Of a stretch of DNA of 64,000 nucleotides, positions 29,295 to 40,600 are shown piece by piece. Each line of letters begins with the position of its first letter. Within the stretch, counting starts at the first letter, position 1. The translations under genes and the position numbers were made by a program. Location of the stretch: positions 1-64,000 of the forward strand of contig CM018610.1 in assembly GCA_009192285.1 (NCBI GenBank), read 5' to 3'. This DNA comes from Morchella semilibera (taxonomy: Eukaryota; Ascomycota; Pezizomycetes; Pezizales; Morchellaceae). The notes under the pieces were generated by a model, which was not told where the DNA came from, did no database searches, and saw only the letters and a list, made by a program, of their open reading frames with translations.

Positions 29295-30577
29295 TTAATC
29301 GAATAAATTCTCCAAAGCATCCATGTTGGTGGAACAATTGGACAACATGTGGTCGTCCACCATACCCCGTATGAACCGCGCCTCCCCAAACCTCTGATTC
29401 ACATTCAAAATCTCCGCAATCTCGAGCTTTCCCTTCTCTCCAGTATCTATTACCCACACCCTTCCAGGAGGGACCAGCTTTTTGTGTGTTGCAAGGGACC
29501 GAAACTTTGCCATATAGGCATCGGGGTCCACTTTATTCTTTGAAAGACCGTCGACTATAGCAGCCAGGTACGGGGTGTTCTGCTTGAGATACAACGCAAC
29601 CGCCCTGAAGTCCCGGATCGCCCCGTGACTGAGAGCTGGGACGACGTCGTTCTTATTGACAAGGGAGTAGGTCATGGTCTTTGTCCTCTGCCGCAGTTCC
29701 TCGTCGAGGGAGGCTGCCGGCTCAAAACCGTAACATTCGATCTGCCTTCCAGGAACCGTCCTCGCGTTGGTCAGGAAACGACCATCACCACCTGGGTCTG
29801 CTAGGAGGGGGGCTAAAAGGCCAGCGACTCCTCCCCCGAGTGAATGGCCCACCACTACCAACTTGTAATCTGGATTCCTCGCCAGTGCCCTCTTCACCTG
29901 AGCAACCAGTAGAGGATACTCGACCAGCCCTTGGGCAGACTGCCACATCCCCCATGGACCTGATACTTTTTGCCCCACAGGTCAACGTCAGTATAGAGGA
30001 ACCGCACATCCTTCAGGGCACCCTCCAGGGTTGCGGTCCCTTTCAACGCCACAACCACCGACTTCTCGCGGTCATCCACGGCCACAAAGTGCTCTAGCAT
30101 TGCCTTCCCGGCCACTGCCTCTTTGTTGACGTATGGCTGCACGTTGCGCCGCGCGATACCCGTGCGTTCCGCTATGTACTCCTCGTCCGTCTTGAGGGGG
30201 TTATCTGATCCGTAGGCCGCACTGGCATATTTCATGTAGTGCGAGAAGCGCTTCGCGATGGGACTGTCCTCAACACTCGAGTATCTTCGTGTCTCATATA
30301 TCGGCTTGCTGCTCAGCGCCTGCATAATCGCCATCACCGACAGGGCAACATTTATGTCGGTGAACGTGAGCTCTCCCGAGAACTCGCGGTGCACAATACT
30401 TGAAATCTCGAGGATGGCATCGCCCGTGTGCGGTGGGAGGAAGCGTTTGATTGCTTCTGCCGCGGCTTTCTGCGCGAGGGGGTCGTTTATAGTGGCGCCA
30501 ATGCCTGATGCTACGGCAGCACCCCCGAAGCTCCAAGATAGGACGCGGCGGGTAGCTATACGGCCGACGAGCGCCAT
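29295..30577 (-). pseudogene. Class-3 lipase, one frame break at C5 run
   Basis: The start ATG at 30577 gives an N-terminal hydrophobic segment (about residues 14-30), then a helical region and RSYxK-like PIYETRRYSS, then EHFVAVDDREKSVVVALKGT, the usual first strands of the lipase fold. The nucleophile elbow GHSLGGG follows, then NKNDVVP with the likely acid Asp and MVDDHML with the likely catalytic His, so the whole triad is present. The reading frame shifts once inside VHGG/GMWQSAQGLVE, exactly at a run of five C on the plus strand (29949-29953). Everything on both sides is conserved, so an assembly error at the homopolymer is at least as likely as real decay. Total length would be about 428 residues. 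It resembles fungal Lipase_3 / diacylglycerol-lipase-like proteins. The substrate, an acylglycerol, is inferred from the family. Confidence 0.75.
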
Positions 30578-31591: not shown

Positions 31592-31593
31592 TA

Positions 31594-31805
31594 TTAGAGC
31601 CTTTTAGTCCCCCATATTTTGGCCATTTCTCGTCCATCTCTCAGACTCGCAGCGCCGAGCCCTGTAAGAGTTTAAAATAGACCAATAGCGAGCTTTGATC
31701 ACTACAGATCGTTTCCGATTTAAGCACTCTTACAGGACTCGGCGCATGTCTCGGCGCTGCGAGTCTGGATTATGGACGAAAAATGGGAGGACTAAAACGC
31801 TCTAA
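31594..31805. mobile_element. MITE family D (212 bp)
   Basis: Imperfect arms of about 75 bp. The left begins TTAGAGCCTTTTAGTCCCCC and the right, on the other strand, TTAGAGCGTTTTAGTCCTCC. Both then hold CGTCCAT, AGACTCGCAGCGCCGAG and CCTGTAAGAGT. TA flanks at 31592-31593 and 31806-31807. It is non-coding. Confidence 0.8.
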
Positions 31806-31807
31806 TA

Positions 31808-32739: not shown

Positions 32740-33012
32740 CCAGCGGAGTGAAGAGACATCATAGGATGATAAGAAGACGTGGAGCCAGAGGAGGCTATGC
32801 AGGCGCTGTTGCGGGCGTTTGGTTGGTGAAATGGCCCTGCTCATTTCGACCATAGCTATTTCCTCTGGGCTGGGTGTTTGCTGTATGTGACGCAGGACAC
32901 GTGTGGCTTATTGCGAGCGGGGAGGTCAGACAGTGGGGGCCATTTGTGGCTACGGCGTTTATTGCGGTGTCTGATGTGGCCATGCATGTTGGTGATGGGC
33001 TGGTTCTCGGGT
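32740..33012 (+). pseudogene. Possible membrane-protein exon remnant
   Basis: On the plus strand, MALLISTIAISSGLG is followed in a neighbouring frame by VFAVCDAGHVWLIASGE, then QWGPFVATAFIAVSDVAMH and VGDGLVLG, ending at a perfect donor GG|GTGAGT (33011 onward). Three hydrophobic stretches and the donor site suggest the first exon of a multi-pass protein broken by one frame change. A 143-codon frame on the opposite strand (32422-32853) has no family signature and I regard it as the less likely reading. Confidence 0.3.
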
Positions 33013-33732
33013 GAGTAAAGAAACTAGTTCGTATCAGCAGGTTAATCGGCCGGTAGCTTAAACATAGAATAATAGGACGCAACGGAGAGACACAACTCAA
33101 CACTCGCCCCAAACCCCCCTTGATACCAGGTATTTATGTATTGGGCCTCTAGCGTTTCACTTATTATTCTTTGCTCTACTTCTGGTGACCATGACTAGGA
33201 CCTCGTTACGCCAGGGCTTAATTTGCTACGTCCTGTTATCTCTGCCAACTTGCAATACCTCTGTGTCTTTGGTGCTACCCGTCGGTGCTCCCCTATTCCA
33301 GCAGCCATGCGTCACAGACCCCTACGAGTTGTTTTTACTTGATCTAAGTGTAGAGCTTCCGAATCCGCTGCCAGAACCAAGAAGCGGCTGATCTCGAAAA
33401 CACCGCTCATAGTGGAATCCGCATCGCATGGAGAGCCAGTATTTGACTAGCACAGTCTCACAAACCTTTCGTCGATAACCCTTGCCCGCACCCATGTCTA
33501 GATACCCCCAATTTTTGCCAACTTGCAATATCCCCACAGGAGAAAACCACAACCCCAGTAAGGACGTTGCATCTCCCTATAAAAAGTGCCGGTATCGTAA
33601 CACTCAAGAAGGTTCGGCGCCAGTATCATTCATGGAAGCTTCTAGCACGTTCCTATTGCCTGGCTCCCGCATCAACATTGCCAGGGTGGGGGGGGGCTTA
33701 TAAAAAAAAGGCAGGGTTAGGGTTTGCACGAG

Positions 33733-33774
33733 TGATGCGGTTTGCGTGATGCGGTTTGCGTGATGCGGTTTGGT
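33733..33774 (+). promoter_or_regulatory. Three tandem 14-bp repeats upstream of a TATA box
   Basis: TGATGCGGTTTGCG occurs three times back to back, the last copy changed at its end (GGT). It sits 12 bp before a TATA box and just after a telomere-box-like GGGTTAGGGTTTGC (33713-33726). Position and tandem spacing fit an activator-binding array. The factor is unknown. Confidence 0.45.
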
Positions 33775-33785
33775 GAACTGTGGGG

Positions 33786-33793
33786 TATATAAG
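33786..33793 (+). promoter_or_regulatory. TATA box TATATAAG followed by CT-rich initiator tract
   Basis: TATATAAG is followed by about 50 bases of almost pure C/T (33796-33848) and then an A/C-rich stretch free of G runs, the common layout of a strong fungal promoter and 5' leader. Transcription would begin near 33820-33850 and run into the stem-loop array. Confidence 0.5.
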
Positions 33794-34008
33794 AAGCCCC
33801 CCCCCTCCCTCTCTTCCTTCCTCCCCCCTCCCTCCCTTCCCCTCTCAGCCACCACCCACCACCAAGACCGATTTCTGTAACGGCCAACAACCTTTCTAGT
33901 CAACCTCCCCAACTGCACAAAACTAACCTAACCCTGAAATCAACAACCAAACTAAAGCTAAGTCCCTCCCCATCCCGATCCCCCCAATTAAACACACTCG
34001 AAACACAA

Positions 34009-34137
34009 ACGGTTACTAGCCGTGACGTGCCTGGTTACTAGCCAGTGTCGCCCAAAGGCGCAGGTTACTCGCCTGTCATTGAAAGGAGCAGCCCCTTACT
34101 AGGGGGCTGAAAGCTGCGGGCCAGGTTATTTGCTTGG
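34009..34137 (+). other. Array of five stem-loops with a conserved 7-base loop
   Basis: Five hairpins, each with a 7-base loop: ACGG-TTACTAG-CCGT (34009-34023), CTGG-TTACTAG-CCAG (34031-34045), CAGG-TTACTCG-CCTG (34061-34075), CAGCCCC-TTACTAG-GGGGCTG (34089-34109) and CCAGG-TTATTTG-CTTGG (34121-34137). Loop starts are 22, 30, 31 and 30 nt apart. The stems differ from one another but stay paired, while the loop is nearly fixed, so structure rather than sequence alone seems to have been kept. A further small hairpin, CGCC-CAAA-GGCG, lies between the second and third. It falls in what looks like a transcribed leader, roughly 400-530 nt upstream of the 34540 start codon. It could be a leader element, a non-coding RNA or a decoy for an RNA-binding protein. 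I know no named family. Confidence 0.55.
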
Positions 34138-34188
34138 AAGATTTTGTGGTGTGGGCGGGGGGTGTTTTTAATCTTGTGCTGACTTTTG

Positions 34189-34213
34189 GTGTAGGATAGG
34201 ATAGGATAGGATA
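34189..34213. repeat. (AGGAT)4 microsatellite
   Basis: Four perfect copies of AGGAT follow GTGT, between the stem-loop array and the coding start at 34540. Confidence 0.8.
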
Positions 34214-34539
34214 CGAGTGTTGATATTACCTTTTTGTTTATTTTGCCTTTTATTATGTTTATTATGTTTATTTGTTATTTGGACTTGCTTGTAGAATTCT
34301 TGAATCTCTGTATGTCGGTATCTAGTAAACGGCGTATTGTGATGGCTACTATTTCTTGCATAACCGTAGTTGTTCCTTGGGCAGTCGAAATAAAGTTGTA
34401 ACCGTGCGTTTTCGTCCAACCCTACCTGACAAGCCACACCCCAGCCACACCCCAACCACCCAGCCACCCAGCCACCCCAGCCACTTAATCAGCCCATCAT
34501 CGCTTCTTCTCTCCTCTCACAACCAAAACAATCATCACC

Positions 34540-37237
34540 ATGGCGAGCATCCCCACATACTTCACCACAAACCCCGACTACAAGACTTGGTCTCTACACT
34601 CGTTCCTCGCATCAGAGCTCCCATCTACAACTACAACAATCGACAACGCGACAAAGCGACGACTCGGCGACGCGTGGAACAGCACCCTGCTGCACTATGC
34701 GGCAGACGAGGAGAACCCGAGACGGGCGGGGTGGGCGGAGAGGTTGAGGAGGGAGTGGAAAGATGTGAGTATTCGGTGATATTAAATTACAGGTTTATCT
34801 ATGGGAATATTCATATTCAAGGGGTTGTAATGGTGGTGAATCGAGTCTCGGTCGGTAGGTTTTTTTGGGTGACTCGGGGGATGAATGATGATGGTGATGC
34901 TGACTAAGTATGTCTTGGCGGGAATGTGTTAGTAAGCGAGGGTCAATCACAACTCAGCAACCGAGACCGGGTCGCCGGTTATTTTCCCCCCCCATCGCTC
35001 CAGCACCGTCCCGCTGCCGGAACAGATGCGGGTTACATGCCCGGCCGCTGTCCTCTCTCTCTCTCTCCCATCGGGGCCGACACGGTGCCATCCTGCCACC
35101 GTCCCCCCCCCCTTCATCGCCGCGATGGATGCCGTCCTGCCATCCCCCGCCCCATATACATATATCTCTCTACCTTCCCCGTACGCGTGTGCCGTCCTGC
35201 CACCCGCGTGCAATGACCGGAGCCCGTTCTGCCGCTCGTGCCTTCTTGCCGCGCGCGGTGGGGCGGAGGCCTGCCGTGTCTACAACGTCGCTATATCTCC
35301 TCTTCTAGAGGGGATAGACGGATCAGAGAGCCGCCCCGTGGTAATTTCATCATGGGCCGGTGATCTGCTTTGTTTTTTGTTTTTTTTTTTCTGCCCTGTT
35401 TTGCACCTTGCGTGCGGTGGTGCGGTCGTGGCTGACGGGTGGATGAGATGATGCGGTGTTGTAGCGGGTGCCCTCGTGCCACCGGCTGCTTGTCGCGTCG
35501 TCTGTCTGTCTGTCTGTCCTCCGGCTGCGCTGCTGTGTCGCATGTTTACTCCTTCGCTCGCTCGCTCGTTTTCTTGTTGACCGTTGTGATGCTAACACGT
35601 GTAGAAATCGACAAACTCGCAGACGGCATTCAACTCGTGGATCCAGGCGCAAGACCCTGCAACGTCGACCCCGGCCCCCTCACCCTCCGTCCCCTCCCCA
35701 GTCCCTTCCGTCGCCTCCTCCGCCTCCGCCTCCCTCCCACCCCCCGCGCCCCCCTCCCGTGCCCCCCGCAAAACCACCCACAAACGCCCGCGCGCATCCC
35801 CCCTCTCCCGTGTCTCCGCAACCACAACCTCCTCGTCAGCCTCCGTGTCCCCAGACGACAGCATCTCCATCGTCTCCAGCACCAGCAGCAGCACCAGCAG
35901 CAGCGCCGCAAGCGGGCTGCTCACGTGGTGCATCCCCAGCGCCGCGGAGCTCCAGGCGCAGTACGACGCTATGCAGAGGAAGGGCGGCGTGGAGGCGCTG
36001 GTGCGCGGTAGGGCTGTGGAGGCGTGTGCGCGCGGGGTGGGGTTCGATGCCGCGATGCTGTGGGTCGTTGATGAGGAGGGAAGGAAGGCGGTGCGGGAGG
36101 CGGTTGAGAAGGAGGCGCAGCGGGAGGCGGCTGAGAAGGAGGGAGAGGAGATGGTGGAGGTGGCAGCGCCACCGATTCCGGAGGTGCCGGAGAGAGTCGT
36201 AAAGTATTTGGAGAGGTTTAAGGAGGTGGGTCTTAGTGGTTTTTTTTTTGTCTTTTTAGTGATAGAAATAAATTGTTTTTGTTTTTTTGCGTGCGTGTCG
36301 TGTTTGAGTTTATGCCGTTTTTGAAACTGTTCTCCCATCCCTTCGCCGGAGCCCTGCCGCGTCGATATCCCATTACCGCCCACTAACCTCCTCCCGCACA
36401 GACAACCAGCACACCCCCCACCCTCTCCGAAATCCTCCACACGGCCTCCCAAGCCCACGCAGACCTCTTCCCAACCCCAACCCACCCCGACAAGCTATGG
36501 GTCGACTCGGCCATGACCCTCGCCCACCGCCTGACATCCGCGCGCTTCCTCTCCCTCCCGCTTACAGAGGGCACCTACGACAGCAGCGTCCATCCCACCT
36601 TCTGGCAAAACTACTTCCTTGACGGCCCCCTGTGGGTGCAGCAGTACCCCTCCCCCTTCCTCCCCCTCCCCCTTCCTCCACTGAGTGCAGCTAACACCAA
36701 CAGGAAAGAGACGAAGCTGCCAACGGCGTCGCCGCTGGCGGCGCTACGATGGGACGGCGTCTTCCTGCCTAAGCGGGCGCTGGCGAACGGAACGCGCCCC
36801 GCCTTCGGGCTCATGGAGGTCTGTCGCGACATTGGAAGCGACGCGGTCAAGTCCCGCCGCGACTGGATCAAGCTGATGCTGGGGCTGCGGGAGGTGCTGC
36901 GGGTGCTGCGCGGCGCGGTTGGTGCTGGCGTGCAGGGGCTGGCGGTGGTGGGCGTGCTCTTGACTGGTATGTGGCTCTGTCCTGTGTGCGGGGGGGGAAG
37001 TGGGCTAATGTGGGGGCGGGGGTAGGCGCGCAGACGACGGTCATGGTCATGAGCTGTGCGGGCGAGAATCTGTACTCGGTTGTTGAGGGGGGCACACACG
37101 TGTTTCCGACGGAGATGGAGGCGGTGGTGGAGGGCGTCACGGCGTATCTCAAGCCTATTTGGCGCGCGAAGGAGATTATGGTCAGGTCGCATGCGGTCGT
37201 GGAGGAGTGCTTTCGCGGGAGGGAGTATGTGATTTAG
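34540..37237 (+). CDS. Uncharacterised 516-aa protein, nuclease-like signature
   Basis: Five exons join in frame: 34540-34764, 35605-36225, 36402-36631, 36704-36966 and 37026-37237. The start CACCATGG is strong. Exon 1 encodes MASIPTYFTTNPDYKTWSLH. Exon 2 has a Pro/Ser/Ala-rich linker, a Ser-rich run and a helical, Glu-rich segment (YDAMQRKGGVEALV). The C-terminal half holds LWVDSAMTLAHRLTS, RWDGVFLPK (about residue 375), FGLMEVCRD, DWIKLMLGLREVL and EGGTHVFPTEMEAVVEGV. The order R-x-D-G, then G-x-x-E-V, then D-x-x-K-L recalls PD-(D/E)xK-like fungal proteins, but this is inference from pattern only. GC content is higher than in neighbouring DNA. The first intron is 840 nt, exceptional for this window. 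The third intron (72 nt) is a multiple of three without stops, so a 540-residue form could arise if it is retained. Confidence 0.65.
34765..35604 (+). other. Unusually long (840-nt) intron with simple repeats
   Basis: Donor GTGAGT at 34765, branch-like GCTAAC and acceptor GTAG at 35604. Inside are CT repeats (35049-35069), GTCT repeats (35498-35518), CTCG repeats (about 35550-35568), a T-rich run (35370-35391), and at least three copies of TGCCRTCCTGCCA (near 35089, 35129, 35189). Other introns in this window are 48-176 nt. It probably grew by insertion of repeats. Confidence 0.5.
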
Positions 37238-37575
37238 AGGGGTGTGCGGGGTTCGGCTTTTTTACTTTGGTTTAGTTTAGTTTATTGGCGGCGACTGTCG
37301 GTTATGTTTTATTTGTCGCAGATGGGGTAATGTGTGTATATACCCAGACTGGTTTTAATGACTGAGCGCGTTTGTGGTAATAAAGTGATATATGCTTCGA
37401 TTTGGGGGGGGGTTTAGTTTCTTTCCTTCCACTGGACAGATAAATATATGAAAACCAATAAACTTGAGTTTATGATCCTCTTTTTTGTGATTGATCTTAC
37501 AAGTGCGGCTTGAACATGGCCTGTCACTCGTGCATAGGATATCACTCGGTCAGGACTCATCACTCGGTATAAAGG

Positions 37576-37605: not shown

Positions 37606-40600
37606 CTTGGCCCGGGAGGGCTTAGTCTCGGGCTTGATCGATAGTTCATACATGCAACGCTTGGTCTCTGGCGGCGGTGGGGGCGGGGATGTGTTGATCG
37701 TGGTATGCGAGCTTTCTATGTCTTGCCACCTTCTGCTTTCCGGTCTATTCCGGTTTTTATCCTTCCCGGTTTTCCATTTACTAGTACCATCCTCTTCTCC
37801 ATTTTCCGTTTTATAATTTAGCCCTTTTTATATCTCCACCTCGCTAGCGCGGGGGCTCAAATCATAGCTTGATGAGGGATGTATGAACGACTCATAAGAT
37901 TGAATGAACTATATACTATATCTCTAGCTTAAGCTGCGGGGGGGCTGCTCTTATGCCTAAACTTAAACCAGGGCATCACCACTCCACACCCAGCCGTAGG
38001 AAGCGCCCCATACAGCAGTGAGGTGAGGGGAGTTTTCGTTTATATTGGGTTAGAAAACAGTCTGGTAATGGTACTTCGTCTTATTGTTGTAATGGCTGGT
38101 TAACATGCACAGGAGGTCTGGATAAGGGGCGGACGGGCGATCGGGATAGTATTGGCGGGGCAGTCAGGATTTGGTTATATCATCACCATTGACAATTAAC
38201 TCGTTCACTGTTTAGTTGTAGCGCCTGCTTACTCCACCATGCTATCGTATCGCTTGAGCACAGCGATGGACCAGATAAAGCATTTATTATCCTTATGTGT
38301 GTGTTGCAGCTGCTGAACCACACCCTGCACCAGGTGCTCGGAGAACGTTTTAAGTGCAGTTATTTCTTGCGATTGTCCTTGCCATCTCATGTCATGGTTG
38401 GGTATCCTAGCCGGCCGCCCCAGCCCGCTTAAACAGCGCTCCCACGGAAACCTATTTCTCTTCCGGACAGATTTACATTGAACTTAGCTGGATCTATTGT
38501 CGGGTGTCATAAGCAACTGAACATTCATGTTGCAACCAAAACCTATATAAGAACGCAACTCCAAGTAATTATTACTCCGCAGCTGCAAGGAAATTGAGGA
38601 GGAAAATTTATAGATAGACTCCCTGGCTATGAGGGTATCTTTAGCTCAAGTGTCTTATCAGGAGCTCTACTTCGAAACCCCCGACTTGTTAGGTGACTGG
38701 TTCGGTGTTACATCCGACAATACCAACCACTGCAACCGCCGTAAGAGAATTAAGTGGTTTGTACTGCAGGCCTATTAATGCCTTGGTATAGGATGATACG
38801 AAAGTCCAAATACTCGGGCTTAGGGCATTATCTTTCATATGTTCTCCGTGGTCTACATGAACGCCTATCTCTGAATGACTACTAGGTAAATATGCAGAGC
38901 TTGATTAAACCTATAAAGCCGTGTGGAAAAATTCTCTTGAACTGCATAGCCCACGCACCGCGGGGGAATCTGTGTGTGTACGTAGAGCTTACATCTCGAG
39001 TGGCTCACGTCGCAGGGTCAAAGTGTGCGGGATATAGGACTGCAGTAGAGCGGAGGATATGTGATATCTTCCCAGTCCCCGGTTGGTTACCTGTCGCTTC
39101 CCAAGTCTAGATGATGTTGAGAGGGGGGTGTACATGATGCAAGCCATTGTGGTGGACACGGGGCGGGACGAGAAAACCTATCGAACAGTAACCCTAACCC
39201 TGAACTGGAAGTTTGCGGTGTCTTTTTTTTTTGTTTAATTTATTAATTGTAAAAAGACTTGAGAATAGTTTTGAGATCTTTAGGACTAGTTAGGTCTTGT
39301 TGTCCCCGAGGCTACGTTTGTTTTGCCGAAAGTCTACCCATCATTATATTAGGACCAATGATTACTCTCTACGGTGCGTGATCCACAGGCCAAATACCTA
39401 CCAACCGAATCCCGTCAAATACTCGGCAAATCTATTTGCCTTAGAGTTAAACCTTTCAGATCGAGGGTATCATGGGGATGGATAACTTGCTTTAGCCTGA
39501 TAAACGGTAACACATTAGGATGATAGGGTAGAATTGTAACGAATGATCAGTGGTGGTTCATGATTTATCTTTGATTAGCTCTATTAGAGCTGGTGTTACC
39601 TATCCCGATGGCCATTCAATTTTTCTTTGTATATCTCCTCCAGTCCCGACACATACACAATGTCGGGTTACATACTGGGTATATAATGGCGCCGATAGAT
39701 ACTGGAGTATGATACTAGAGTATGATGCTGTAAATTCGGGTGGGGGTGGGTGCTGGTTCTGCCCCAAGCCTAGGTTCTAGTATACAGATTCCACGCTTCC
39801 ACTACAGTCTAATCAACGGAGTCTGGCCCTTTCTCAGTGCCTCCTCTCCTCACGCCTCTAATATCCCATATGCCGTTTAAACTCATGTGTGCTTTATAAG
39901 AAACTATTCTACAGAATACAGTGTGTTGGTGCCCCCTGGGATTGTCACAAAGTGGCTATCGTTTGCGGGGATTAGTGGACTTCTCCAACTTCACTATACG
40001 CGAGATACGGGCTCTGGGTCCGATTTCGAAGGTATCCCGCTTGGGAGTTTCAAGACGCATACACGCACCTACATCTCAATATCCCCGTAAATCTCGTTCC
40101 AGAATCTTTTTTTTCTAGGCCTCGGTAGGAGATGAGGGCGATATCCCCTTCAATGGAGGTGTTGATTTAAATTGTAGTAGTCACGACAAATGGTCTGGTA
40201 ATCCCTAACCCTATCCTTGGTACGTGTCCGTTCCTCCACAGCTCGATTATTAGTCAATTCAGTAAGACCATTAAGGTTTAGCCTCAATTCGCCGCTGCCT
40301 CTTCTGAGGCTGCTAAGGCGCTCTTATATATCGGAGGGTGTGGGGCGAGTTGAGTTCTTAATAAAAATGACCTACGTGACTTATAGAATTTTCTGTGTCG
40401 GGCTTGGCGTGAAAAGAACTTTCAAAACCCAAATTCCCTAACTAGGAGAAACCCTAATGGATAAGGATGATATGAGTCGCCTTTCAGCCGTAGAAAAACC
40501 AGACTAGGGCAAGTTGTACGTAAATTTATGCGACTAGGAACTGTGAGGCCGTGCCTGACGACATCCTATGTTGCAATAGCGGATCCATGCCCCAGCCGCA

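Follow-up and report, generated by a model that had tools for sequence, protein, structure and literature searches.

The question raised by this locus is why five short hairpins should stand in a row with almost the same loop while the stems that carry it differ from one to the next, and whether such an arrangement is best understood at the level of RNA, at the level of DNA or as an accident. The stretch analysed, hereafter the window, comprises the opening 64 kb of contig C8 in an ascomycete genome assembly; the array was pointed out in an earlier note made from the letters of the window. The answer favoured below, a tentative one to which we would give a little less than an even chance, is that the array forms the structured body of an mRNA-like noncoding ascomycete RNA of some 0.5–0.6 kb, read from the + strand, which would serve as a multivalent dock or sponge for a factor that reads the loop.

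The hairpin array

Both the loops and the stems were found at every place where the earlier note had put them, and the five-hairpin structure at 34009–34137 (+) is real (Table 1); the stem CAGG/CCTG originally given for hairpin 3 is present, and can be extended by one outer G.U pair to GCAGG/CCTGT. The description of the units as lying about 30 nt apart holds for the later start-to-start intervals (29, 29 and 32) but not for the first, which is only 22. Written as DNA, the loop is TTACTAG in units 1, 2 and 4, TTACTCG in unit 3 and TTATTTG in unit 5, so that as RNA the consensus is UUAYUNG. In RNA the first U of the loop can pair with its last G in all five units, and a second pair, U-A, follows in units 1, 2 and 4; because of these pairs the open part of the loop would comprise just 3–5 nt.

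Table 1 Features of the array and of the presumed transcription unit around it (positions in the window).
Feature	Positions	Strand	Sequence or remark
Telomere-repeat-like box	33713–33725	+	AGGGTTAGGGTTT; in presumed promoter
14-nt repeat, three copies	33732–33773	+	GTGATGCGGTTTGC; in presumed promoter
TATA-box-like word	33787–33793	+	TATATAA, then a C/T-rich tract; presumed promoter role
Presumed 5′ leader	33850–34008	+	G-poor, without ATG; A.36 C.40 G.08 T.16
Hairpin 1	34009–34023	+	ACGG UUACUAG CCGU (DNA ACGG/CCGT)
Hairpin 2	34031–34045	+	CUGG UUACUAG CCAG
Hairpin 3	34060–34076	+	GCAGG UUACUCG CCUGU
Hairpin 4	34089–34109	+	CAGCCCC UUACUAG GGGGCUG; loop-adjoining stem bases swapped
Hairpin 5	34121–34137	+	CCAGG UUAUUUG CUUGG; one G.U inside stem
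Presumed 3′ part	34138–34388	+	G/T-rich; TAGGA repeat at 34192–34213
Presumed poly(A) signal	34389–34395	+	AATAAAG

A presumed transcription unit

To judge from motifs and base composition, the flanks of the array (TATA box, G-poor leader, the array itself, G/T-rich tail, AATAAAG) look like one small transcription unit. The composition of the presumed leader resembles that of the leader of the next gene, 34420–34539 (A.28 C.51 G.07 T.14), and there is a similar correspondence at the other end between 34138–34400 (A.21 C.11 G.25 T.43) and the 3′ part of that gene (A.18 C.12 G.31 T.39). AATAAAG occurs in the window twice on the + strand and nine times on the − strand (AATAAA occurs 21 times on +), and its other + copy, at 37379, lies after the stop of the next + gene. 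Further TATA-like words, both TATAAAA, are present at 33579 and 33700 (0-based count). Downstream of the TATA box, ATG is first met at 34255 and again at 34264, 34312 and 34342, and no reading frame passes through the array, there being stops inside it in all three + frames; in the presumed unit the array thus occupies the place usually taken by a reading frame.

The earlier note had assigned the array to a likely transcribed leader. The transcript-like make-up of the region stands, but the array seems to belong to a small unit of its own, ending near the AATAAAG at 34389, rather than to the leader of a coding gene. The coding-gene version of the idea is nonetheless the alternative that survives best, although we consider it rather unlikely: the gene at 34540 would have a long 5′ UTR with the array inside it, or in an intron of that UTR, and there the hairpins, or else a factor bound to their loops, might hinder scanning ribosomes or splicing. 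Such a leader would be on the correct strand, 403 nt upstream of a well-set ATG at 34540, and could include CTGAC...GTAG at 34178–34195, picked out by eye as a candidate branch site with a candidate 3′ splice site, yet it would have to run through the AATAAAG and the G/T-rich stretch, which resemble a transcription end, and past the four intervening ATGs listed above, while the gene already has a C/A-rich stretch of its own immediately upstream (34420–34539). Structured RNAs in the introns and UTRs of fungal mRNAs do have precedent in a fungal survey (PMC8216456). On balance a stand-alone noncoding RNA is the likelier of the two.

Stem covariation and the choice of strand

That varied stems remain paired round a near-fixed loop, which was the central observation of the earlier note, is borne out when the units are compared: all 20 core stem pairs are kept across the five units, while identity, taken pairwise over units, is 59/70 (84%) in the loop as against 20/40 (50%) and 17/40 (43%) in the two stem arms. 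A near-fixed loop between diverged arms is the opposite of what neutral decay of a tandem repeat would be expected to leave. In an alignment of the units 30 of 32 pair cells hold standard pairs, with two-sided changes at five of the eight pairs; neither count was reached in any of 500 column shuffles, and the number of further pair types was reached in one of 500, but it must be remembered that this result is not a probability, because the five units probably share descent, so that relatedness remains, and because the structure was drawn from the same units. Sliding the register of the alignment left it at most 50% paired in every case. When the 3′ arms were dealt among the five units, full pairing (20 pairs) was obtained in two of the 120 orders; the second of these exchanges units 3 and 5, between which the arm CAGG is shared. 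It is likely that the five-hairpin structure is under selection as RNA.

As to which strand would be the RNA, wobble pairs are found under every loop (U.G, 5/5), inside the stem of unit 5 (G.U) and outside that of unit 3 (G.U), and since such pairs exist only if the RNA is the + strand, a + strand RNA is favoured; the − strand can pair at 19 of the 20 core places. Folding calculations give a comparable picture. Taken in isolation as + strand RNA, all five units fold (−5.7 to −15.6 kcal/mol), while unit 5 as − strand RNA forms no structure. In context, the mean pair probability on the + strand is 0.74–0.98 for hairpins 1, 2, 4 and 5, hairpin 3 being the weakest (0.18–0.48), and the corresponding values on the − strand are 0.57–0.94 for hairpins 1, 2 and 4, 0.02–0.16 for hairpin 3 and 0.02–0.09 for hairpin 5. 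In folding energy the region does not stand out (z −0.90, with 33 of 200 shuffles equally good), and over its full length the presumed transcript is surpassed in stability by all 100 of its shuffles (z +2.63), in our opinion because the leader, being poor in G, is open. The support for the array is thus its pattern, rather than its folding stability.

Much of this also bears on the suggestion that the feature belongs to the DNA itself and has no role as RNA, the dyads being either protein sites or palindromes perfected by replicative template switching, which is able to restore palindromes. Such an origin, which we regard as unlikely, would accommodate the Watson-Crick character of 19 of the 20 core pairs and the presence of a presumed promoter within about 350 bases of the array, but it sits poorly with the way in which the units differ. 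A protein reading sites in DNA should keep the arms, yet these vary, unit 4 going so far as to swap GG/CC to CC/GG; template switching, for its part, would not hold the loops at such high identity while the arms diverge, nor would it favour wobble pairs, whether those closing the loops or those added in units 3 and 5.

Controls for chance

Within the window the sequence TTAYTNG occurs as a potential loop 80 times (49 on the + and 31 on the − strand); five of these have stems of at least 4 bp, all five being the array units, and the other 75 have stems of 0–3. For a more general measure, same-loop clusters were defined as hairpins with 7-nt loops alike to within two differences, clusters of at least four hairpins being those of interest. 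When the whole window was dinucleotide-shuffled 40 times and the + strand scanned, 20 of the shuffles gave a cluster of three and none a larger one; in 20,000 shuffles of 33995–34160, 31 reached three and again none went further. Looser scans with shorter loops do find other clusters in the window, namely one of five hairpins whose loops have 6 nt (− strand, 34420–34563, within a C/A-rich repeat), and some clusters of four with 5-nt and 6-nt loops. As a natural control, both strands of 65 further loci of this genome, 200,123 bases in total, were scanned, these being derived from the searches and hence not a random sample; they yielded one 7-nt-loop cluster above three (locus L022), which is a plain tandem repeat, together with one cluster of five having loosely similar 5-nt loops (locus L031) and eight clusters of four with 6-nt loops. 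The units of the L022 repeat form short hairpins whose stems are near-identical. When the five units are made into a covariance model, as the earlier note had proposed, they score 19.7–23.1 bits, by construction, and the next best place in the window scores 12.2.

These controls speak against regarding the array as chance, or as a functionless tandem repeat in decay, an explanation to which we attach a slightly lower probability than to a feature of the DNA. It is true that this is a single copy in one genome, and that the spacers before units 3–5 have the letters AAAG in common (by eye), from which descent by tandem duplication is suggested; on the other hand, not only the shuffles and the natural control but also the opposite rates of change in loop and arms, and the two-sided changes in the stems, argue against simple decay.

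Searches for a second array and for known families

The segment 33800–34400 has no second copy in its own genome (56.76 Mb, 23 contigs), and five patterns run over both strands of those 56.8 Mb found no second paired array, one copy of the array being seen. The reversed patterns served as controls, and all match counts include the array's own. The pattern GGTTACTAGCC gave 11 exact matches (2 own) vs 43 for its reversed control; TTACTAG twice, 11 (1 own) vs 31; three loops starting TTACT, 40 (3 own) vs 29; a GG-stem plus second loop, 9 (3 own) vs 9; and three loops starting TTATT, 34 (0 own) vs 29. Not one of the GGTTACTAGCC loci outside the array has a TTAYTNG hairpin with a stem of 4; among the 52 loci from the first four patterns none has two TTANTNG hairpins with stems of at least 4 on the same strand; and in the 25 matched texts without a locus the inner-loop stems reach at most 3.

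The earlier note knew of no matching family, and Rfam 15 agrees, having no match to the array when 33000–35500 was searched with E up to 5; the sole match in that range, at 35291–35321, is at chance level (14.1 bits vs a gathering score of 60). A tRNA gene model found 0 tRNAs in the window. Among the literature matches listed for UUACUAG, and among those listed for hairpin arrays or kissing loops, nothing was found that matches the array. One candidate considered was self-kissing of the loops through the palindrome CUAG, which was set aside because units 3 and 5 do not have it. Another candidate was complementarity to 18S rRNA, in which CUAGUAA occurs as well; the 18S rRNA word that was looked for is absent from the assembly, in which 5.8S rRNA gives one sub-threshold match (39.5 of 42 bits) and none at gathering score.

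Comparison with known systems

The closest parallel is bacterial. In CsrB and RsmZ the hairpin loops carry GGA, which is read by the protein CsrA. These are noncoding RNAs in which several hairpin loops of the same motif stand on varied stems, an arrangement suited to protein titration (see also PMC4005645 and PMC7652899). The array resembles them in that a single loop motif recurs in several hairpins whose stems vary, and in that no reading frame runs through it, and differs in that its loops are UUAYUNG, none of them containing GGA, and its host is a fungus. By analogy, the simplest reading is that the array would work like CsrB/RsmZ in principle without being a member of that family.

Among eukaryotes, yeast included, the protein Smaug/Vts1 reads a CNGGN loop whose stem is free to vary in sequence; the loops of the array do not conform to CNGGN, and GG is found in none. 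We know of no fungal noncoding RNA that is built as an array of one loop on free stems. The survey of fungal structural RNAs already mentioned reports 17 that are conserved, with covarying stems, in ascomycetes, whether stand-alone and intergenic or located in UTRs or introns (PMC8216456); unlike the present case, none is described as an array in its outline or abstract, and the word “tandem” is absent from its main text.

A proposed stand-alone multivalent RNA

If the array is taken as the body of a stand-alone RNA, the proposal would run as follows. The + strand unit would be transcribed as a short mRNA-like RNA carrying the array, and a factor acting in trans, most probably a protein that binds RNA, would read the loop whatever the sequence of the stem; with five sites in 129 nt the RNA could then gather or titrate this factor, much as CsrB titrates CsrA. 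The variation in the stems may be tolerated simply as pairing alone matters there, and it may also serve to prevent cross-pairing between neighbouring units. One loop motif on freely varying stems is a mark of sponge or platform RNAs, which are best known in bacteria, and if the array proves to be transcribed and conserved it would offer a tag of natural origin, with five sites, for isolating the protein or RNA that reads the loop.

The match to tRNA-Thr

A possible lead comes from the loop itself. The anticodon loop of the genome's tRNA-Thr(AGT) is CTAGTAA, and its reverse complement is exactly TTACTAG. In the search for this tRNA, eight of the 11 rows found are one sequence (the reversed control gave nine rows), and ARAGORN called tRNA-Thr in four of the seven loci run, out of 11. 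The match can be put to use in two ways, and in either, on the + or on the − strand, it could be coincidental.

In the first, the array would be read from the − strand, where CUAGUAA 7-nt loops would mimic anticodon arms and bind threonyl-tRNA synthetase (ThrRS) or a tRNA-modifying enzyme; this is most improbable. Units 1, 2 and 4 do show CTAGTAA on that strand, equal to the tRNA-Thr(AGU) anticodon loop, and they fold there in context with the probabilities already given, but units 3 (CGAGTAA) and 5 (CAAATAA) are without U33, − strand unit 3 barely folds in context and unit 5 does not fold, and both promoter and composition favour the + strand. ThrRS-like genes (four loci of eight matches) have no such hairpin, the longest stem being 2. 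There is precedent in yeast, where, according to PMC9956033, ThrRS binds an anticodon-arm-like element in the RPC10 mRNA; that element likewise has a short stem and a tRNA-Thr-like loop (CUAGUAA being present on the opposite strand of three of the five units), yet it is a single element within coding sequence, whereas the array has five, on the strand less likely to be transcribed, two of them without U33.

In the second, the + strand loops would themselves read tRNA, the array kissing anticodon loops so as to sense or restrain tRNA-Thr(AGU) and tRNA-Ile(AAU), which we hold to be just as doubtful. The invariant UUAYU is, in units 1–4, the exact complement of positions 34–38 of the tRNA-Thr(AGU) anticodon loop (its 3′-stacked part), the loop of unit 5 is taken to complement the anticodon loop of tRNA-Ile(AAU), and the most variable place of the array loop falls opposite U33, which is unpaired within the anticodon loop. 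Working against this is the fact that A37 of these tRNAs is normally t6A, which hinders pairing; in addition, two rows with CTAATAA, the loop expected of tRNA-Ile (L066 and L067), were not called tRNAs by ARAGORN, and by our own estimate an anticodon-loop match of this kind would arise by chance roughly once in 10 to once in 200 cases (0.5–10%).

Telomere-like words and the neighbourhood of the array

The window begins with a telomere (1–70) made of a non-canonical 10-nt repeat, (CCCTAACTAA)n, with TTAGTTAGGG on the opposite strand; on the + strand of the 64 kb CCCTAACTAA is confined to 13–72, and among the literature matches listed for a telomere of the CCCTAACTAA type no such telomere was found. 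Telomere-like words recur near the array, as the box in the presumed promoter (Table 1), which we take to be a telobox, and as AACTAACCTAACCCT at 33921–33935 in the presumed leader. The + strand of the window contains the word AGGGTTAG twice and the complement of this word 13 times, with five of the 13 in the telomere. From their sequence, the words at 33713 and 33921 are possibly sites of a telomere-repeat-binding factor. Because of the word in the leader, telomerase RNA was also considered, and was rejected, as AACTAACCTAACCCT at 33921 would not template TTAGTTAGGG.

The gene downstream of the array (34540–37237, +), which has a leader-like stretch of its own, appears to have its first intron at 34765–35604 (GTGAGT ... 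CTAACACGTGTAG, by eye), and two exon stretches scanned gave no Pfam match. Elsewhere in the window, one of nine stretches scanned matches DUF3433, a domain of fungal distribution, and introns contain branch-site-like words CTAAC or CTGAC (by eye); like the G-poor leaders, these features are indicative of an ascomycete fungus. Upstream of the array there is a class 3 lipase gene on the − strand (29298–30577), which has a 70% DNA match on contig C17. Dispersed short repeats at 31593–31807 and 38492–38711 are found on many contigs; the first has inverted-repeat ends by eye, giving it a MITE-like look. Finally, in the contig pairs C9/C10, C12/C13 and C21/C22 the search matches fall at nearly equal coordinates, so that the assembly seems to be in part a two-haplotype one.
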